44,254 nt of DNA from a virus: IMG/VR virus record IMGVR_UViG_3300018465_000006, positions 1 through 44,254 of that record; one strand, 5' to 3'. Both the position numbers and the translations under genes were made by a program. Below, piece after piece: positions 13,847 to 38,566 of the stretch; the stretch's first letter is position 1; each line of letters opens with the position of its first letter. The notes below the pieces were generated by a model, which saw only the letters and a program-made list of their open reading frames with translations, did not search any database and was not told the DNA's origin.

Positions 13847-15545
13847 CAGGGAATAGGTCCGAGTCTGCGACGGGCCACCGCTTGGATTTCAGATATGCCT
13901 TCAGGAGCGCCGAGATGTTGATTCCGGTCGTCATCAGGGCCTGGAGAGCGATAGGGTTACCAAGCAGGGCAACGATTTCGTTTATGTTCTGAGTGAGAAC
14001 CTGGGGGTTGGAGTCCGACGTCTTGCCGGTCGCCTCCCACCGGAGAGGCTTTCTGAGTGATTCGCGGTCTTGACAAGGGAATTGCTCCTGGTAGACCATC
14101 GATAAGGTGCCGTAGTGGATGTAGGCGAGTTCGCGAATGAAGTCGCACATCTCTTCCGGAGCGAGCGCGGCCACGTCCCGATATTCGTCGGCGCCCTCCT
14201 CCATGTTGTTGTTCACAATCACGGCCTCAGAAGCGGTTTCTCCGGTCGTTTGAGCCGTGCCGCCCTGCGAGATCCGAACAAGAGCGTCCGCGTCTCCCTT
14301 CAGGGATTGGAACATCATCGGCCAGACTTCGCCCTTGAACTTGCATTCGGCAAATGTGATGCTTACGTCCGCTTCGACCGGGATGTACTCACCGGGTCGA
14401 TAGCGCTTAACTTTGTCAATCGATCCGCCCGAGATGAACGCCGCGGGGAAGGCCTGCATCTTGCCGCCCTCGATCATCAGGGTTTGACCGTCTGAATAGG
14501 CGCCCTGGATTGGGATAAGGTCTTGAACGATGGGGTTCGCGTGGAAGAACTCGTTATAGGCGGGCATCGTCACCGCATGGGGGAAGTACCAGGGGCGGGA
14601 ATAGGGGACGAACTCTACACTCGTCTCGCCCGTTAGTTGGTCGCTAATCTCGAGCATGGCGCCGTACTGCTCGAACTCGAGAAGAAGTCTTTGGTTTCTG
14701 GCAACGACGGCTCTGTACCTTTCCTCGTATCCGTCTCCGTCGAGGTCGTGCTTTACGATCACGTCCCACAACTCGACCATCTCATCGTCAGAATCCGATA
14801 TCCCGGAAGCCTCCTCAGTGAGGGACCAGTCCTTTGCCCGGCCTGACTCCCATGACTGAGGATCGTCGCCGCCGTAGACGGTCACCTTGTCAAAGTAGGC
14901 GCCCATCTTCTGGAGTTCCTTGACCTCCCGGACGCGCTTCTTGATTCTGTCCCCAACCAACCGGGCTGCCATTACCCCACCGGTCGACAGTGGGTAGATA
15001 GCGAAGTCGTTTGGATGGATTACCCCGGGGTCTGGCCCAACGTACTTGTATGGAGCGTCGACGTCCTGTGACTGCTCGGTATGGTTGGCCATCCGGTCCT
15101 GGGTTTGGATAGAGAAGGGACACTTGAAGATGGCCGGCGCCGCCATGCAGGAAAGCCGGGTAGCCGTTCGCAGCTTTCGGGGGAAGTCCGCTCGCTCCCA
15201 GAGGAACTGAACTACGTCCTCATTCTCCTTGATCCTCGCTTTGTCCGACGAGAATCCGAAGGCCGAGAAGTAGGGCCTTTGAGAAGTGATGGGGTTGCAG
15301 GTCTTCGTCACCAGCGCATCGATGCGAGGCTTGATGATGTTAATTGCTAGCGGCTGCGCATCCTCATTAACCTTAATTCCCTGCTCGTCGGGTTCGCCGC
15401 GGTATCTGCGCTCGCAGTCCTCCCACCTTTCCTGAAGGCCGGAGCCCCGCATATTCTGAGCGTCGTCAAGCATGGAGGAGATAAGCTCTCCAAGCTTCTT
15501 GCGCACCTCAGGGTCGCGGACTTTGTTAGGGCGTAGAGGGTTCAT
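13677..15545 (-). CDS. Portal protein, 622 aa
   Basis: The N-terminal region has the portal signature of short-tailed phages: EDCERRYRGEPDEQGIKVNE and INIIKPRIDALVTKTCNPI, followed by SQRPYFSAFGF and a wing domain with ENEDVVQFLWERADF. The C-terminal part has a helical stem/crown and a Pro/Gly-rich tail that carries the overprinted gene. The protein forms the dodecameric vertex ring for DNA entry and tail attachment. It starts at 15545, overlapping the stop of the GroES-like gene by 4 bases. Length is normal for podoviral portals. Confidence 0.82.
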   Translation of the reverse strand: MNPLRPNKVRDPEVRKKLGELISSMLDDAQNMRGSGLQERWEDCERRYRGEPDEQGIKVNEDAQPLAINIIKPRIDALVTKTCNPITSQRPYFSAFGFSSDKARIKENEDVVQFLWERADFPRKLRTATRLSCMAAPAIFKCPFSIQTQDRMANHTEQSQDVDAPYKYVGPDPGVIHPNDFAIYPLSTGGVMAARLVGDRIKKRVREVKELQKMGAYFDKVTVYGGDDPQSWESGRAKDWSLTEEASGISDSDDEMVELWDVIVKHDLDGDGYEERYRAVVARNQRLLLEFEQYGAMLEISDQLTGETSVEFVPYSRPWYFPHAVTMPAYNEFFHANPIVQDLIPIQGAYSDGQTLMIEGGKMQAFPAAFISGGSIDKVKRYRPGEYIPVEADVSITFAECKFKGEVWPMMFQSLKGDADALVRISQGGTAQTTGETASEAVIVNNNMEEGADEYRDVAALAPEEMCDFIRELAYIHYGTLSMVYQEQFPCQDRESLRKPLRWEATGKTSDSNPQVLTQNINEIVALLGNPIALQALMTTGINISALLKAYLKSKRWPVADSDLFPDAQPFTQDAPGSVPGIGPVGAPGDVPPGSVPPDDESMQVAGLVDLLDPGAGGMPPA

Positions 15546-16255
15546 GCTGCTCGGGTGATAACCGCCTCAATCTGTGAAATCCTGACAATGCGAAGGTCTT
15601 CGTCGACGTCGACCGTAAGGTCTGAGTCTTCCGGCTGAAAGACAACTTTCTCGCCTCGCTTGAACTTAGAGGAGCCAGGCCCGACCACCGTGGCGGTTTG
15701 GGTTGGCATCTTGGTTTTGTCCGGTAGGGCTAGGAATTCGTGCTTGGTGTTCTCAAGCCGAATCATTAGGTTTCCTATCGTTGGCACGATGACGTTTCCG
15801 ACCAACTTGGCCACGATGGATTCGTTCCAGTCGATAACCTCGTACACGCCGGTTTCGGTTCGGTCGCCCTGGCCAGTTAGTTGGTAAACACTCGGGTCTC
15901 CGTGGACGCCCAGGAATGCAACTCGTCGGTCTGTTTTGTATCCACCGGATTGGAAACCATCGAACCAGGTTCCGTGGTACGGCCGCATCAGGACCCCATC
16001 ACCCGCCTTTATGTCGATCTCTTCGTATTCACCGTTCTTGCGGTTCTTCGGGGGCGTGACCGAGAGAACAACTCCGACGTCACATCTCAGTCGACCTGAA
16101 ACCTTGTCGGGAAGGTAGATGTTTCCTATCTGGTCCGGGGCGTCGGCCATCTCGACCGCGCACTTCCCCGGGAGGCATGTCACACAATCAAAGGCTTCTT
16201 GTGGGACGTGAGGTAACTCGTAACCGGAGAGCTGAAGCGTTCCTGAGTTATGCAC
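15542..16255 (-). CDS. Tandem GroES/Cpn10-like protein, 237 aa
   Basis: The second half (about residues 155-235) reads as a co-chaperonin domain: IVPTIGNLMIRLENTK, a mobile-loop-like stretch LALPDKTKMPTQT, then TATVVGPGSSKFKRGEKVVF and a closing strand DEDLRIVRISQIEAVI. The first half repeats the pattern: IGNIYLPDKVSG, CDVGVVLSVTPP, IKAGDGVLMRPYHGTWF. The order beta-strand, mobile loop, V-G-x-V/G-P-G, K-x-G-(E/D)-x-V-x-F, I-x-x-x-x-I is that of GroES. Phage co-chaperonins such as T4 gp31 replace host GroES for coat folding. This one sits between large terminase and portal, so it may assist portal or capsid folding, or be a structural reuse of the fold. The N-terminus has three Cys (CVTCLPGKC), possibly metal binding. 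I see no GroEL gene. Confidence 0.68.
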   Translation of the reverse strand: MHNSGTLQLSGYELPHVPQEAFDCVTCLPGKCAVEMADAPDQIGNIYLPDKVSGRLRCDVGVVLSVTPPKNRKNGEYEEIDIKAGDGVLMRPYHGTWFDGFQSGGYKTDRRVAFLGVHGDPSVYQLTGQGDRTETGVYEVIDWNESIVAKLVGNVIVPTIGNLMIRLENTKHEFLALPDKTKMPTQTATVVGPGSSKFKRGEKVVFQPEDSDLTVDVDEDLRIVRISQIEAVITRAA

Positions 16256-17705
16256 TCGCCGCCTCCTTCAGTCTTTGTTCTAAGTTCATGCTTTTCTTCA
16301 GTGGTTCTTCTTGCTCGAATCGTGAAACTGTCTCTCCGCTCCTGACCACCGCAGCCAACCCTTCATAGAGGGCTGTCGCAAGCGATCTACAGCAGTCGAT
16401 CCGGTGATAGGTCTCCTTGTCGGCGATCTTCCGGTCGATTGGCTCCCCTTCGGGATTGAGTTCGAATGAGTAGGTCTCGAACTCTTCACAAAGGTGGGTT
16501 AGGTCATCGAAGACCTTTAATAGACCTCGAGCGATCAGAGCATCCAGGCGGTAGATCCCCTCGAACAGGTCGGCGATTGGCGGGCGCTTTATCGGATAGC
16601 CTGCTCTCGTGAAGTCCTTCCGCCAGTTGTCTTCGCTCGGCGCCCCGCCCCATGCACTGGGAGGGAACTTAAGCCCCTGCTTCTGGAGCATCGTTCGGAT
16701 GTGCGCTTCCGTCGTTCGGGACTCGTTCGGTAGATATGTCCCGTAGACGTAGATGACCCCTGTTTTCGGGTCCTGCGCGGCGAATACTCCCGCGGTGTGG
16801 ATCGGTCCAAAGTCGTGGCCACTGAACCGGCGCCATGTGCTTGGGATTTCGAACCGCTTGACTCTTGCTTTGTCAAAGGTGGGGAAGATGGCGCCCGCGG
16901 GCTTCCTAAAGAGCCCCAGGTACATCATTTCCCACTTCCACTCCGGCATCTCGTACCGGTCTTTCTCGATCTCCTCCCGGCTCATTACCGGGTTCATCCA
17001 AGACTCGAACTGGAAGAGTTCGTAACCTCTCTCACCGTTGAATGCGGGGTCGTGGACCTTGGACTTGAACCAGTTCCACTCGTAGGGAGTCGACCCCCAC
17101 GCCCTGCGGCCCATTCCGTTGGACCGGCCAACCTTCAAGCGGCGATTACAGGCAAAGAAGGAATCAAGTTTGTTGTCCTTCTGTCCCGCTTCGTCCCAGA
17201 TGCAGGCTAGCGCCGTCATCGACTCGAGGTTGTTGGAGTCGGAGGCATAAGCGAACTGGATGGTTACCGTTACGCCGCCGAACCCGAATATCTTCTGGAG
17301 CCCTTCCTCGGAGAAGGTGAACCTAGGCCTGTTTCCCTTAACCAACTTCCCGAGTTGGTGATCTTCCTCGAACACCCTGCGGAATGTCTGGAAGAGCTGC
17401 GACTCCATCAGGGTCATCGTTGGTCCGACAACCAAGAACTTGCCTTCGCCCTTCTCTTTTATCCACTCCTTACACCGCTGGATTTCGCGAAGCAACCAGT
17501 AGATAAGGAACTCGGTCTTTCCACCTTGGGCGCCGGCGCAAATGACAACTTCTAAGGCCTGTGACTTCCAGGCTCGTAATTGGCCCTCGTGGAAGTGCGC
17601 GGGCGGTGTTTCCAGGTCGAGAGTCTTCGGTGGGATTCCGCGTCTTCGCTTCTCAGCTAGGATCTCCTCCAGGCTAGGAACCGAGTTTAGAGCTAATCCG
17701 TTCAA
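16248..17705 (-). CDS. terL: Terminase large subunit, 485 aa
   Basis: ATPase: Walker A-like AGAQGGKTEF at about residues 57-66 and Walker B ALACIWDEAG with the catalytic acidic pair at D171-E172, followed by a coupling motif around GSTPYEWNW. Nuclease: first acidic residue in FSGHDFGPIHTAG (about D298) and later acidic residues in the RNase H-like domain (RPPIADLFEG, VFDDLTHLC). The protein packages and cuts phage DNA at the portal. It overlaps the small-subunit gene by 32 bases and the next gene by 8. Confidence 0.88.
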   Translation of the reverse strand: MNGLALNSVPSLEEILAEKRRRGIPPKTLDLETPPAHFHEGQLRAWKSQALEVVICAGAQGGKTEFLIYWLLREIQRCKEWIKEKGEGKFLVVGPTMTLMESQLFQTFRRVFEEDHQLGKLVKGNRPRFTFSEEGLQKIFGFGGVTVTIQFAYASDSNNLESMTALACIWDEAGQKDNKLDSFFACNRRLKVGRSNGMGRRAWGSTPYEWNWFKSKVHDPAFNGERGYELFQFESWMNPVMSREEIEKDRYEMPEWKWEMMYLGLFRKPAGAIFPTFDKARVKRFEIPSTWRRFSGHDFGPIHTAGVFAAQDPKTGVIYVYGTYLPNESRTTEAHIRTMLQKQGLKFPPSAWGGAPSEDNWRKDFTRAGYPIKRPPIADLFEGIYRLDALIARGLLKVFDDLTHLCEEFETYSFELNPEGEPIDRKIADKETYHRIDCCRSLATALYEGLAAVVRSGETVSRFEQEEPLKKSMNLEQRLKEAASA

Positions 17706-18318
17706 GGTTCTCTAAGTCCTCATCTGACAGCTTGGATAGGTCAACGGTGGTTTGGGTTTTCTCTGTCCACTGTCCGAGTTCTTGGGCGGCTTGCTTGGCG
17801 AGTTCTCTTTCTTCCTTGATCGTGCCAATGTCCACCTTGTAGATGTCCACGACGGTCGCAAGTTCACCGCTTCCTAAGCTTCGTTGTTCGTGGCAGAGAA
17901 GACCCGTGGTCCAGCCTGGTTGCAAGGCATGGGATGGGTCCTCCGCTCGCGCCAGAAACACTTCATCGATCTGGTTCCAGCGGGTATGAAGCCGCTTAAC
18001 TCGCTCCAACCTGTTGCCGATCCCTTCTTGAAGGATGGCCTGGTGTATCTGCTCTTTGGCGTCTTCCACTTTCTTCACGAACTTGGGGTCGCGCATCCAT
18101 ATGCCGATGGTTTCCGGTCGAACCCCGACTAACTCAGCGATCTTCGCTCTCGAATACTCTCCAAGGGCTATGAGGGCAGGGGCCTTGGATTTGCAAACCG
18201 TTCCTGTTTCCTCGGTGATCTTCCGTCCCGCGTTGAAGGCGTTACCCCAGTTCCCCCCGCTATTGAGTCCACCTTGCGGCTCCCCAGTCTTTGGGTGTTT
18301 GCCCGGACGGTCTGCCAT
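17674..18318 (-). CDS. terS: Terminase small subunit, 214 aa
   Basis: Basic, Gly/Asn-rich N-terminus, then an HTH region (ALGEYSRAKIAELVGVRPETI, with the recognition helix at VRPETIGIWM) followed by a helical oligomerisation part (RDPKFVKKVEDAKEQIHQAI) and an acidic C-terminal tail (KLSDEDLENLERISS). This is the standard plan of small terminases, which bind the packaging site and feed DNA to the large subunit. The gene is directly before terL and starts just behind a strong intrinsic terminator. Confidence 0.7.
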   Translation of the reverse strand: MADRPGKHPKTGEPQGGLNSGGNWGNAFNAGRKITEETGTVCKSKAPALIALGEYSRAKIAELVGVRPETIGIWMRDPKFVKKVEDAKEQIHQAILQEGIGNRLERVKRLHTRWNQIDEVFLARAEDPSHALQPGWTTGLLCHEQRSLGSGELATVVDIYKVDIGTIKEERELAKQAAQELGQWTEKTQTTVDLSKLSDEDLENLERISSKLGS

Positions 18319-18323
18319 ACATC

Positions 18324-18345
18324 AAAAAGGCCCCTCTTCGGAGCC
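18324..18345 (-). terminator. Intrinsic terminator upstream of terS
   Basis: On the minus strand GGCTCC-GAAGA-GGGGCC forms a 6-bp stem (one G-U pair) followed at once by TTTTTG. It sits 6 bases before the terS start codon, so late transcripts from upstream must read through it to reach packaging and head genes. It could instead protect terS from upstream transcription, but no obvious promoter lies between it and terS. Confidence 0.7.
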
Positions 18346-18370: not shown

Positions 18371-18961
18371 TTAGGGGTCTACGCTGCCCCGATACTTGAT
18401 TTGTGGAACCTCTGGCGCGAGGGAGTCATTGAATGACCGAACAGCGTCTCTGGTGACATCGTCCCAGGAATCGTCTAACCACGTATCCGAGTGGTCGTCC
18501 GCTAGTCGAACGTGGTCACCGAACCATCTGGTCGCCATCGTCCAGGGCAGCAGTCTCGCCAACTCGCCAACCGTCGCATTGCCCCACTTGTAACATCCCC
18601 GCTCGCCTACCTCGATCCCGACGATGTACTCCTTCTTAGTGACGTTCTCCCATCGGTAGTAGGTGGCCATGTCTTTTACTCGCTCCTCCTCTGGCAGATA
18701 CCACGCATATTGACTCTCCAAAAGTGGACGTTGCGGGATCGTGCGGATTTCGCTTTGGACGCGGGGCTCTCTGGCAACCGTCACGCCCGCTGCCATGATT
18801 GTTCGGTTCGATCTCATCGCTTCCCCGATCTTCCTGATAACGTCATACTTATCCTCGGGATTGCACTTACTCAAGTCGGCTTCACTGATTGCCTTGCCGC
18901 ATTCTTGGCATACGGTCTGGCCAAGAATCTTAATCCACTTGTGCGGTGAAGCGAGGTTCAT
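18371..18961 (-). CDS. Hypothetical protein with N-terminal zinc-ribbon-like motif, 196 aa
   Basis: Near the N-terminus TVCQECGKAISEADLSKC has a Cys-x2-Cys plus a third Cys, a possible zinc site. The rest is charged and rich in Trp and Asp (DDHSDTWLDDSWDDVTRDAV). No family recognised. It lies between the signal-peptide protein and the terminator before terS, in the late-operon orientation. The length and the regular composition support a real gene. Function unknown. Confidence 0.5.
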   Translation of the reverse strand: MNLASPHKWIKILGQTVCQECGKAISEADLSKCNPEDKYDVIRKIGEAMRSNRTIMAAGVTVAREPRVQSEIRTIPQRPLLESQYAWYLPEEERVKDMATYYRWENVTKKEYIVGIEVGERGCYKWGNATVGELARLLPWTMATRWFGDHVRLADDHSDTWLDDSWDDVTRDAVRSFNDSLAPEVPQIKYRGSVDP

Positions 18962-18966
18962 ATCTG

Positions 18967-19350
18967 TTAGAACCTTACTCGAAACACCGGAATCGGAAGC
19001 ATCGTCGCCCCATAGTTCCGGTTATGCAAAACGCAGTAGCCATGAGCGAGTGCCCCGACGATGTAGGCCGCGCCCTTCCACTTCTTCGGTAGCTTGGATT
19101 CGATCAGATCCACCAGAACCATCTCCCCGATCAACAGTAGGGAAGCCTCTAACCATCGGTCGTTGTTCACGAACGGAGCCGCGATGGGGTTGAGCTCAAA
19201 GTGACCCTTCTGGCGAAACTGATAGGTCGATATCCCATCCAGAACCGCGTTCAATCGGTACGTGCTCTTCCAGTCCATCGAGACACGGATCTGCGCCCAA
19301 CAAAAAGGCCCTGTGGTTAGCAGGGCCAATGCAAGGAGTAGACGTTTCAT
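18967..19350 (-). CDS. Secreted or membrane hypothetical protein with embedded terminator, 127 aa
   Basis: Starts with a clear signal peptide: MKRLLLALALLTTGPFCWAQ, with a likely cleavage site after WA. The body is basic and contains two hydrophobic segments (LEASLLLIGEMVLVDLI; AAYIVGALAHGY). The fold could be a small exported or inner-membrane protein. A perfect intrinsic terminator lies inside the signal-peptide codons, with the T-run just past it, so transcription may often stop in this gene. Located in the late region downstream of lysis genes; a superinfection or envelope role is possible but unsupported. Confidence 0.6.
   Translation of the reverse strand: MKRLLLALALLTTGPFCWAQIRVSMDWKSTYRLNAVLDGISTYQFRQKGHFELNPIAAPFVNNDRWLEASLLLIGEMVLVDLIESKLPKKWKGAAYIVGALAHGYCVLHNRNYGATMLPIPVFRVRF
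19302..19327 (-). terminator. Intrinsic terminator inside the 18967-19350 coding sequence
   Basis: On the minus strand GGCCCTG-CTAACCA-CAGGGCC forms a perfect 7-bp stem followed by TTTTTG. It spans codons in the signal peptide of the gene starting at 19350. This is an unusual place and suggests attenuation coupled to translation, or antitermination of the late transcript. Confidence 0.7.
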
Positions 19351-22309: not shown

Positions 22310-22395
22310 CGTAAAGCTGATAGAACGGCTGCGGCTAGGAGCGCTAGTAAGGTAATCCCCACGAACTCCAGCCAGAAGCGAGGGATGGCTTTCAT
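22306..22395 (-). CDS. Membrane peptide, 29 aa
   Basis: Peptide MKAIPRFWLEFVGITLLA followed by more hydrophobic residues to LSALR: one membrane helix with short basic ends. ATGA overlaps with the holin gene before it and the phosphoesterase after it make it a true member of the operon. A role in lysis (holin partner, small spanin substitute) is plausible by position only. Confidence 0.5.
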   Translation of the reverse strand: MKAIPRFWLEFVGITLLALLAAAVLSALR

Positions 22396-22568
22396 TTCTC
22401 CGTCAGCTTCTCCGTAATCTTGTCCATGACCTGGACCATCTTCACACCCAGCTCGTCCCAGCGTTCGCGGTCTTTGTCTGCTTGCTTGAGGGTCCGGTGG
22501 CCGAGATAGCCGAAGAGAAGCGCGAATATTCCTTGGCTAGCAAGAGCCTTTAAGAGTTCTGGGTCCAT
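22392..22568 (-). CDS. BhlA/UviB-type holin, 58 aa
   Basis: One N-terminal membrane segment (LLKALASQGIFALLFGYLGH) followed by a charged helix (RTLKQADKDRERWDELGVK). This is the plan of BhlA-like holins: short polar start ending in (S/T)QG-x-F, a single membrane helix, then a soluble charged helix. It would form lesions in the inner membrane and release the endolysin. The gene lies close behind the endolysin and overlaps the next small gene. Confidence 0.62.
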   Translation of the reverse strand: MDPELLKALASQGIFALLFGYLGHRTLKQADKDRERWDELGVKMVQVMDKITEKLTEK

Positions 22569-22689: not shown

Positions 22690-22788
22690 TTACAGGGAGC
22701 CCTTGAGCTTCTTGCCACAGTGCATACAGCGGGTGTTGCGGAGGTTTGGGAAATGACCGTAGAAGAAGCAACGAATCCGCTTAGTCAA
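22690..22788 (-). CDS. Mini zinc-finger-like peptide, 32 aa
   Basis: TTG start at 22788 overlapping the amidase stop (TTGA), with GGAGG five bases upstream. The peptide contains CMHCGKK near the end and an earlier Cys, so it may bind a metal ion. Similar MxxRCxxxGH peptides are common in phages. Function unknown. Confidence 0.45.
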   Translation of the reverse strand: MTKRIRCFFYGHFPNLRNTRCMHCGKKLKGSL

Positions 22789-23282
22789 AACATCCTCCAA
22801 ACAGCCTGCGGGTTCTTCCACGGCTCAAGGCCAACCTCAGCACAAAACGACTTCAAGTCGAACAAACGAGGGTCGAACTTCCGCCCAGGTGAAACACCGA
22901 AATGCGTACAGCCCCACTTGATTGAGGGGATGGCCTTCATTAGTTCCAAGGTGTATTCCCGCGCCGCCTTAAGTTGAGCCGCTGTTATCGGGTCTTTCCC
23001 GTCATTGCGGTTCACGAAACAGATGCCCACCGAGTAATCGTTAACGTTCGGACCCTCAGGTCCAACTGACTTACCAGCGTGGTAAGCAACCCTCGTGTAC
23101 GGGACTGCCTTCCACACCGTGCCGTCCTTGTCGATCAGGACGTGGTAAGAGAACCCCTTCAGCTTCAGGGTGGACAGTGCGCCACTCAGCGACCCTCCGG
23201 CTGTAGCGTGGTACACGACAGTCGTGCACGGCTGCTTGCGCGATCTTGACGCGAGCCAAGCGGTGAGGTTCTTGAGGATCAT
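22785..23282 (-). CDS. Endolysin, N-acetylmuramoyl-L-alanine amidase (Amidase_2), 165 aa
   Basis: T7-lysozyme-like fold: first zinc His in TTVVYHATAGG (H25), second in WGCTHFGVSPGRKFDP (H127), with the PGRKFDP signature giving the catalytic Lys (K135) and the third ligand D137. T7 lysozyme has Cys at the corresponding place; many family members have Asp. SYHVLIDKDGTVWKAVP and VAYHAGKS are further family motifs. The enzyme cuts the amide bond between muramic acid and L-Ala. There is no signal peptide, so release depends on the holin. First enzyme gene of the lysis cassette. Confidence 0.88.
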   Translation of the reverse strand: MILKNLTAWLASRSRKQPCTTVVYHATAGGSLSGALSTLKLKGFSYHVLIDKDGTVWKAVPYTRVAYHAGKSVGPEGPNVNDYSVGICFVNRNDGKDPITAAQLKAAREYTLELMKAIPSIKWGCTHFGVSPGRKFDPRLFDLKSFCAEVGLEPWKNPQAVWRMF

Positions 23283-23285
23283 TGG

Positions 23286-23492
23286 TTACCGTGATAAATC
23301 CAGCCCTGTGCGCGGACAAGTGCCCTCGTATTTACGAGTTCTCTCCAAATCACCCGGATCCAAGGGAAGTCCCATCTGGTCTCGCCGTACGGCTGCATCA
23401 ATGCGAACAGCCTCAGCGATCGTCTTTGACCACAACTCATCCTCGCGACCGACAACTACGCCAACAGCGTTAATAGCACGAATGATGTTCAT
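23286..23492 (-). CDS. Hypothetical protein, 68 aa
   Basis: Starts MNIIRAINAVGVVVGREDEL right after the leader terminator and ends just before the endolysin gene. No ribosome binding site is seen before the start, so translation could be weak or leaderless. The hydrophobic start (IINAVGVVVG-like) could insert in a membrane. No family recognised. Confidence 0.4.
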   Translation of the reverse strand: MNIIRAINAVGVVVGREDELWSKTIAEAVRIDAAVRRDQMGLPLDPGDLERTRKYEGTCPRTGLDLSR

Positions 23493-23520
23493 GAAACTTA
23501 AAGCCCGACTCTCGCCGGGC
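23493..23520 (-). terminator. Leader terminator before the lysis genes
   Basis: On the minus strand GCCCGGC-GAGA-GTCGGGC forms a 7-bp stem (one G-U) with a GAGA loop at 23503-23520, followed by TTTAAGTTT. It lies about 300 bases downstream of the late promoter and just before the first lysis-region gene, the position of lambda tR'. The interrupted T-run makes it a moderate terminator. Confidence 0.55.
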
Positions 23521-23822
23521 GGCCGCCTTATCTCGGGATACCGCCTAAGAGTTAATGTGTGCGGTCAGAGAATGTCAGCGGCAAACTGAAGAGGGCGAGG
23601 AGGCAAATGCCTGACCTCGCCCATCGATTCGAACGGCCAGACGCCGCTCGGTGTGACAACCAAAGCGTACCACGTTCGTTATGGTCTGTGGTGTACTAAA
23701 CTGGCTGGCTACGGTCCGCTCCCGGTACGTTCCTGGGTGGGTAGCCAAAACTACACAGCCCCACCGCTAAGGGTGAGGCTGAAACTGTGAGAAGTTAGTG
23801 GCGCAAGATTCCCTGGGCCACT
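23493..23822 (-). ncRNA. Structured leader RNA of the late operon (6S-RNA-like position)
   Basis: No gene is supported here. Several hairpins can form in the leftward RNA. 23795-23824 has arms TTAGTGGC/GCCACTAA. 23757-23780 has 9-bp arms with one G-U and loop of six. 23706-23712 pairs with 23741-23747 (TGGCTAC/GTAGCCA). 23593-23622 has GGGCGAGG/CCTCGCCC plus an inner 4-bp stem. A promoter lies just upstream and a terminator at the end, so a discrete RNA of about 325 nt is expected. It may be the counterpart of lambda 6S RNA, or an RNA that modifies RNA polymerase. Confidence 0.5.
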
Positions 23823-23828
23823 AAAGAT

Positions 23829-23834
23829 ATTATA
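23829..23834 (-). promoter_or_regulatory. Late leftward promoter, -10 box
   Basis: TATAAT on the minus strand, 18 bases behind the stop of the 23852-24334 gene. A -35 is weak: TTGCAT at a 19-base spacing is the best match. The start of transcription would be near 23822. No other equally good promoter was seen before the lysis and head genes, so this is the candidate late promoter. Confidence 0.55.
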
Positions 23835-23851
23835 CGAACAAGTGCACCCAA

Positions 23852-24334
23852 TCATGCAACCTTTTTTGTTTGCTCCATTTTCTCGATAGCAATCAAGGTA
23901 GCTACACGGTTGATTGCCCACGCTGCATTAGCGATAGCCCACACGCCGAGATCCTTGAGTTTCCAGCGGTTTCGCCCAAAACTAGGCACCAACCAGAACT
24001 CCCCAATCCCCCGGTGATAGTAGGCCACATGGACGATCAACTCTGGCAAGGAGGCGTCCTGGGGATACTCCGTCACGTACCGACCAATGACATCTCGCAC
24101 CAGCAAGTAATCACCGTGCTCATAGTCCAGGGGCCATCCGTCGAACTCCTCTAGGTTGTCCGGTAGCACCCCTTGCGGCCATTGCGCCGGTGGATGGATC
24201 TGTTCTTTCTGCCATGCGCTCTCCTCCCCACCATGCACCTTGTACGCGGCGTAACTGGTCAGTGCCTCGAAAGCCCATCGATAGTGCTCCTTGGTCAGTT
24301 TGTCTTTTGATGCTGTTACCGTGTTGTCCTTCAT
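23852..24334 (-). CDS. Last gene of left operon, possible late regulator, 160 aa
   Basis: I chose ATG 24334 (MKDNTVTASKDKLTKEHY), with GGAGGG about five bases upstream, rather than a longer open frame that would run through the iteron region. The product is Trp/Tyr-rich and helical (AFEALTSYAAYKVHGG; GVWAIANAAWAINRVATLIA). No family recognised. It ends 18 bases before the late promoter, the position of Q in lambda, so a late-transcription role is possible. No zinc motif like that of lambdoid Q is seen. The alternative is a replication accessory protein behind the helicase. Confidence 0.55.
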   Translation of the reverse strand: MKDNTVTASKDKLTKEHYRWAFEALTSYAAYKVHGGEESAWQKEQIHPPAQWPQGVLPDNLEEFDGWPLDYEHGDYLLVRDVIGRYVTEYPQDASLPELIVHVAYYHRGIGEFWLVPSFGRNRWKLKDLGVWAIANAAWAINRVATLIAIEKMEQTKKVA

Positions 24335-24445
24335 TTTGACCCTCCAGTGGTCCGTATTCCCCTTGCTATTACTCCCATGTCGTGATATTGAGTGTTTCTG
24401 TTGTCCAAGTTCCCCCTGCGGAATATGGAGCGGAATAGTTCGATA

Positions 24446-24600
24446 CTTGTCGAACAAGGACACTAGGGACAGTAAGGACACTTTTTGACTATTTCCCTTA
24501 CGCGTACGCGCGAGAGAAGAACCCCTAGAAAGTGTCTTAAGTGTCCCTTTTAGGTTCAAACAAGTGTCCCTCCTTGCCCCTGAAATTGCCCAAGTGTCCC
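24446..24600. repeat. Iteron-like repeats, candidate replication origin
   Basis: The 8-9 base unit AAGTGTCC(C) occurs six times: reverse orientation at 24458 (GGACACTA, one mismatch) and 24476 (GGACACTT), forward at 24530 (AAGTGTCT, one mismatch), 24539, 24562 and 24592. A palindrome CTTGT-CGA-ACAAG lies at 24446-24458, and CGCGTACGCG at 24501-24510. The array sits between the helicase-primase gene and its downstream neighbour. No gene start is needed here, and the stretch 24335-24606 is otherwise non-coding. Iterons next to a replication gene are typical of origins. Confidence 0.55.
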
Positions 24601-24606
24601 CGGCCA

Positions 24607-27887: not shown

Positions 27888-28111
27888 GCGGCCCTCACTA
27901 GACGGGTGTACGCTACACTATCTGTTAAGGCTTCTCTCTCTTGTGTAGGAATACTGTGAGAGAGCCGAACTAACAAAACACTTCTGTCGTTGGTTAAGTC
28001 AGAGGGAGAAGTGTTGCGTTTTTTAAGACAAGCCTCACGCAAAACTGCACACCGGTTACTGGGGACAAGTGATTTGGGTAGAACCCCAAGCTTGCTGATG
28101 CTGGCGGTCAT
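27884..28111 (-). CDS. Hypothetical protein with paralog at 36481, 75 aa
   Basis: The first 32 residues match the 39-residue product at 36481-36600, with about 18 identities: MTAS, LG, PK, LV, C-x-VL and ACLK are shared. The tail after residue 32 is extra and basic. Both genes are in early operons on opposite strands. No function recognised. The overlapping starts and stops with the neighbours support expression. Confidence 0.5.
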   Translation of the reverse strand: MTASISKLGVLPKSLVPSNRCAVLREACLKKRNTSPSDLTNDRSVLLVRLSHSIPTQEREALTDSVAYTRLVRAA

Positions 28112-28332
28112 TTCGCCTCCGGGTTTGGGATCAGGCGCAGCGCGAATGCCTTTGCGATCATGTGAACGCGGTTCTTGGCTCCTAGTACACGCCGGAGCCG
28201 GTGGACACGCATATTGATGGCGGTTTCCTGAATGCCCTCTTTTTCAGCGATTTCCCGAGCAGATAGACCAGCCGCGAAGAAGTAGAGGGTTCGAGCCTCT
28301 TTCTTGGTGATCGTGATTCTAAGCTGAGGCAT
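28108..28332 (-). CDS. LuxR/GerE-type HTH protein, 74 aa
   Basis: KKEARTLYFFAAGLSAREIA then EGIQETAINMRVHRLRRVLG is a typical GerE helix-turn-helix: a helix with L-x-x-x-A-x-G-L-S-x-R-E-I-A and a recognition helix E-T-A-I-N-M-R-V-H. The protein is only the DNA-binding domain, with no receiver. It likely controls promoters in the early or late programme. It overlaps both neighbours in the left operon. Confidence 0.7.
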   Translation of the reverse strand: MPQLRITITKKEARTLYFFAAGLSAREIAEKEGIQETAINMRVHRLRRVLGAKNRVHMIAKAFALRLIPNPEAK

Positions 28333-38491: not shown

Positions 38492-38566
38492 GCCGGTGTA
38501 GCTCAGCGGTAGAGCAAGTGTTTCGTAAACACTAGGCCAGCGGTTCGAATCCGCTCATCGGCTCCA
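38492..38566 (+). tRNA. tRNA-Thr (CGT)
   Basis: Complete cloverleaf of 75 bases: acceptor GCCGGTG/CATCGGC, D-arm GCTC...GAGC, anticodon arm AGTGT-TTCGTAA-ACACT with anticodon CGT, T-arm AGCGG-TTCGAAT-CCGCT, and an encoded CCA end. All stems pair, with one G-U in the acceptor. It decodes ACG. It lies next to the attP-like region. Confidence 0.93.

Follow-up and report, generated by a model that had tools for sequence, protein, structure and literature searches.

A putative late promoter and structured non-coding leader at the early/late boundary of an uncultivated phage

The control of late genes is well understood in a few model phages only. How it operates in the phage represented by IMGVR_UViG_3300018465_000006 is the question raised by a short region located between its early genes and its lysis genes. 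The window analysed here is this whole IMG/VR virus record (44,254 bases). It encodes an integrase (PF00589), an S24-type repressor, a PrimPol/D5 primase-helicase, a terminase and an SU10-like portal, and the phage is probably temperate and podovirus-like. A portal-based search for relatives returned none, and when 301 genomes of a single phylum were searched with the terminase profile, the matches were distant, scattered and uninformative on the host phylum. Sigma-70 and intrinsic-terminator rules were assumed throughout; the rules of the host may differ. Also recorded in the window were a GroES-like co-chaperonin domain (phrog_3188, 1.3e-5) at 15542–16255, between terminase and portal, and a complete tRNA-Thr (CGT) gene at 38492–38566, just after the integrase, which is possibly an attachment site or a phage-borne tRNA.

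The preliminary description of the region had seen in it the layout of lambda pR'-6S-tR', with lysis genes and then packaging and head genes on the same strand. This gene order was confirmed. On the minus strand, a TATAAT box is followed by a non-coding stretch, a small ORF, the amidase, the BhlA holin, the two terminase subunits, the portal and the head genes, and the presence of both amidase and holin downstream of the leader confirms the lysis block. The main features are:

23852–24334, minus strand: gene for a 160-aa acidic protein (pI 5.9) of no known family, in the position of Q
23829–23834, minus strand: -10 box TATAAT of the putative late promoter, predicted start near 23822
23493–23824, minus strand: non-coding structured leader with about eight local hairpins, defined by fold z, rank, helix probabilities and absence of coding signal
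23286–23492, minus strand: small ORF of 68 aa that separates the leader from the amidase, stopping 3 nt before the amidase start
22785–23282, minus strand: endolysin, N-acetylmuramoyl-L-alanine amidase (Amidase_2; PF01510, 6.9e-21)
22392–22568, minus strand: BhlA-type holin, 58 aa (PF10960, 1.1e-7)
16248–18318, minus strand: terminase small and large subunit genes (phrog_2538, 1.6e-5; phrog_2, 3.8e-23), start of the packaging/head block

The 68-aa ORF displays a weak coding signal and no good Shine-Dalgarno sequence at its ATG, and no relatives of its product were found in profile databases or among viral contigs. An in-frame TTG at codon 20 has GAGG just upstream, so the ORF may in fact start at a more downstream position, which would also shift the end of the leader.

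The late promoter that had been proposed holds as far as its -10 box is concerned. The perfect TATAAT at 23834–23829, which separates the 160-aa gene from the first hairpin of the leader, has no exact counterpart elsewhere on the minus strand of the record; the start near 23822 was deduced from the spacing to this box. Counted over both strands, TATAAT occurs twice, compared to 5.0 ± 2.4 in shuffles. Among the genes downstream, the minus strand has no other perfect -10, and from 1 to 23834 it has just three other -10-like sites with at least 5/6 matches including A2 and T6 (22000, 9379 and 8277). The promoter came without a usable -35 element, the best hexamers matching 3/6 with spacings of 19 nt, 20 nt and an unfavourable 15 nt. 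Initiation may need an activator, or the host may follow other rules. An imperfect 22-nt direct repeat (73%) is common to the late -10 region (23826–23847) and the iteron region described below (24442–24463), and may be due to chance.

Folding analysis bore out the earlier observation of about 325 nt of hairpin-rich sequence without a good gene. With end points picked so that no hairpin is cut, a choice which favours the leader (tiles cutting hairpins gave z of -2.1 to -2.4), the 332 nt from 23824 to 23493 have a predicted minimum free energy of -138.8 kcal/mol (z -4.75), and none of 100 shuffles was as stable. Once dinucleotide content was regressed out, this fold came first when the minus strand was divided into 1,758 overlapping windows of 332 nt. 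The two halves of 166 nt each gave z of -4.8 and -3.2, against a whole-strand mean of -0.1 (sd 1.04). The plus strand of the same DNA folded less well (z -2.20), which indicates that the structure favours the minus-strand RNA. Mean pair probability is 0.8–1.0 for the majority of the helices, and every long helix falls within this range. The predicted hairpins are:

23823–23796, 23781–23756, 23747–23706, 23705–23659, 23650–23630, 23625–23591, 23582–23522 and 23520–23503, minus strand: leader hairpins
23796–23823, minus strand: hairpin TAGTGGC/GCCACTA at the 5' terminus, where the RNA is predicted to start, pair probability 0.97

No coding signal was detected in the leader. The ORFs inside it have negative codon-usage scores, while the 160-aa gene scores +0.12 and the amidase +0.16, and a coding leader was rejected on this basis. 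A search of Rfam gave no match, and at a loose threshold chance-level matches alone; comparison of the leader DNA with phages and plasmids returned just a 28-base chance match. As read from the sequence, the -10 box, the gene order and the predicted folding of the leader and its strand probably represent a late promoter followed by the structured non-coding leader of the late transcript.

The same features could also arise if no dedicated element were present, the region being the place where transcription of the early operon ends, with its hairpins and a TATAAT that occurred by chance. Hairpins resembling terminators do occur directly behind the early operon, the TATAAT count and the leader terminators are each near chance when taken alone, and the stretch is not conserved in relatives. 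However, its fold stands out from the rest of the strand and is strand-biased, and the long run of late genes needs a promoter, for which this TATAAT is the only perfect -10. Such an explanation is considered unlikely.

A replication origin within the leader was considered and rejected, as iteron-type repeats are found upstream instead, beside the primase gene. At 24453–24601, directly after the primase-helicase gene, GGGACACTT occurs three times and is followed by AAGTGTCC/GTGTCC in inverted orientation, around a CTCTCGCGCGTACGCG core. A relative of the primase (L003:6455–6575) has this layout too, built from another repeat (AAGTGACG ... TCTCGCGAGG ... CGTCACTTACGTCACTTACG). The iteron region is a probable replication origin, in which the repeat appears to have changed and the layout to have been kept between the two phages.

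Terminators had been announced both at the end of the leader and within the downstream operon. Candidates were scored by hairpin and U-tract and ranked (n = 116), and those of relevance here are:

23756–23781, minus strand: 10-bp hairpin, weak terminator-like, tail TGTAGTTTTG (rank 8/116, tail score 1.95, within shuffle range)
23503–23520, minus strand: 7-bp GC stem closed by a GAGA tetraloop, terminator-like but weak, tail TTTAAGTTTC, directly ahead of the next gene (rank 10/116, tail score 2.86, within shuffle range)
19307–19327, minus strand: highest-ranking candidate for an intrinsic terminator in the record, tail TTTTTGTT (rank 1/116), in the signal-peptide-like first codons of ORF 18967–19350
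18329–18345, minus strand: good intrinsic terminator candidate, tail TTTTTG (rank 3/116), between ORF 18371–18961 and the terminase small subunit gene

The leader hairpins themselves are present, but as terminators they appear weak: both have poor U-tracts, and shuffles of the single strand yield several equally good candidates. The two terminators within the operon were retrieved. They are the two best on the minus strand and lie 4.5 and 5.5 kb downstream in the same gene run. Owing to its position within the first codons of an ORF, the one at 19.3 kb may be masked by translating ribosomes.

The hairpins at the 5' and 3' ends, which flank a stretch devoid of coding signal, are also what a discrete structured non-coding RNA would display, be it a small RNA or another type, ending near 23503 while the late genes use another start. 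The 6S RNA of lambda is a precedent for such an RNA. The terminator at its 3' end is weak, however, the minus strand offers no other clear promoter before the lysis genes, and the sequence belongs to no known Rfam family, which makes a discrete RNA quite unlikely.

The resemblance to the lambda switch is mostly positional. As in the pR'-6S-tR' regions of lambda and HK022, a structured non-coding leader is found between the replication block and the lysis genes, with a gene just upstream and a long late operon on the same strand; at about 330 nt, it differs from their late leaders in length. Q antitermination in lambda is defined by Q itself, a Q binding element and loading at a sigma-dependent promoter-proximal pause (PMC7171158). 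Among the features of this type that were looked for, gene order alone was found. The window phage has no Q homologue and no -35, in contrast to lambda and HK022, and no -10-like pause hexamer (A2, T6, at least 4 matches) occurs after the start, between about -6 and +45. The tail of HK022 tR' reaches a score of 4.08, much above the 2.86 and 1.95 of the leader terminators. With regard to N-type control, the leader contains no match to boxA (TGYTCTTTA or YGCTCTT) followed by boxB as in lambda nut; its sole boxA-like piece is the core CTCTTA (at 23551), which occurs 16 times on the strand.

The place of Q is occupied by a genuine gene, as the preliminary description had it, but no match to the Q family or to any other was detectable. 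The gene has a GGAGG Shine-Dalgarno sequence and a coding signal, while an extension of it to 251 aa is without coding signal. No relatives of the 160-aa protein were found in Pfam, PHROGs, NCBIfam, 50,697 phage records or the IMG/VR viral contigs, comparison with the PDB gave no meaningful match, and its structure model (pLDDT 45.5) was unusable. Another candidate transcription factor is encoded in the early operon at 28108–28332. This 74-aa HTH protein is GerE/sigma-region-4-like (PF00196, 1.1e-6; phrog_3282 'sigma factor', 2e-10).

The lack of a recognisable protein candidate, together with the good terminators further down the operon, would also fit antitermination by RNA only, where the leader RNA binds the elongating polymerase like put of HK022 and terminators are ignored for many kilobases. 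Put needs no phage protein for read-through, which depends on the beta' zinc-binding domain. The put elements measure about 70 nt, fold into two stem-loops, act in the early operons and allow terminator read-through over at least 10 kb, and putL is located just downstream of pL (PMC9378689). The leader resembles them in that a phage transcript carries hairpins at its 5' end or close to it, structure being predicted from the 5' end onwards, and in that terminators are located downstream. It differs by its chain of about eight hairpins placed before late genes, and a put-like RNA, as had been suggested, was not supported: similarity to the early region of HK022 was at chance level (6 of 100 shuffles were as good), Rfam gave no match and the collections searched contain no relatives of the leader for covariation. 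The leader following Q in HK022 was folded as a yardstick and also proved more stable than its shuffles (z -3.07), so strong folding by itself is no pointer to a put-like RNA. Read-through mediated by the RNA only is considered highly improbable. The broader proposal that the leader is a new structured RNA making polymerase terminator-resistant, alone or with the 160-aa protein, in a non-lambdoid late operon is judged very unlikely.

The closest relatives available share single proteins with the window phage at moderate identity. L002 has a terminase (40%), an amidase (50%) and a head-region protein (68%) in common with it, L014 an amidase (55%), and L007 a terminase (41%) and head proteins (about 29–43%). 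In the corresponding upstream regions of these three relatives, the leader sequence was undetectable above shuffles. In L002, the amidase is directly preceded by a gene (L002:2784–3362) for a 192-aa sigma-factor-like protein (PF04542, 1.7e-7; TIGR02937, 3.4e-10, just under its cut-off), and a strong intrinsic terminator (tail score 4.07) lies in front of this gene. The protein may be a late sigma factor of the phage. The amidase gene of L014 follows one for an unrelated 124-aa protein of no family, and the 266-nt gap at the equivalent spot has an unremarkable fold (z -0.67) but contains a sequence that looks by eye like a promoter. Not far upstream of this amidase, L014:3424–4050 encodes a Mom-family DNA modification protein (PF25680, 6.7e-36). 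As L002 and L014 hold other elements at the equivalent spot, other routes of late control are probably used in the group. The comparison suggests that the early/late boundary is a swappable control module, while lysis and head genes are kept. The structured leader seems private to the window phage, and the collections may omit very near records.

The sigma-factor-like protein of L002 at the same boundary draws attention to control by an activator, in which a phage protein recruits polymerase to the late promoter and the leader is an ordinary stabilising 5' UTR with no antitermination. The 74-aa HTH protein and the 160-aa protein are examples of candidates for this role. The absence of a -35, the weakness of the leader terminators and the presence in the early operon of an HTH protein with sigma-factor PHROG similarity are consistent with such control, and the two phages share the same amidase and related head genes downstream. 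L002 differs in having a sigma-like gene and a single strong terminator at the boundary instead of a long structured leader. Activator control leaves the most structured stretch of the strand unexplained, and no activator site was identified; it is a possible explanation, judged nearly as likely as gating by termination and read-through.

Our preferred reading, a late promoter with a structured leader, can be extended by a mechanism in which the leader gates the late transcript by termination and read-through. The region would then act as the switch from early to late genes in a temperate, podovirus-like phage, with host RNA polymerase starting at the -10-only promoter near 23822 on the minus strand, directly after the early/replication operon. 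Polymerase would first make an untranslated hairpin-chain leader of about 330 nt and then continue through the genes for lysis, packaging and head, all on a single long late RNA. If a phage factor were missing, most polymerases would stop at the leader hairpins and at the stronger terminators located at 19.3 and 18.3 kb. In the presence of this factor, be it the 160-aa protein or another early protein, they would read through. Here we infer the start site, the gating and the read-through alike.

Several observations are in favour of gating. A unique TATAAT immediately precedes the strongest fold of the strand, and this fold is better on the minus strand; the leader has no coding signal, no other perfect -10 is located downstream, the late genes are in order and the two best minus-strand terminators are in the same run. 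By analogy, the well-folded Q leader of HK022 (z -3.07) and the strong terminator of L002 at the equivalent boundary (4.07) point in the same direction. Against it are the missing -35, the weak leader terminators, the absence of a pause-like element, of a recognisable antiterminator and of a homologue of the 160-aa protein, and the lack of conservation of the leader in L002, L014 and L007, with the gap of L014 at z -0.67. Gating is put forward as a tentative proposal. The further step to processive antitermination, which had been taken earlier, was found unsupported in view of the poor leader terminators, a 160-aa protein without family and the absence of any pause, put or Rfam match. Antitermination and activator control are judged about equally likely.

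As it stands, the stretch is a testable but ordinary-looking late-operon leader, and an RNA-based antiterminator, if true, would be the interesting outcome. With its clean early/late boundary and structured leader, this uncultivated, family-poor phage offers a test of antitermination and RNA-based control beyond the known lineages.
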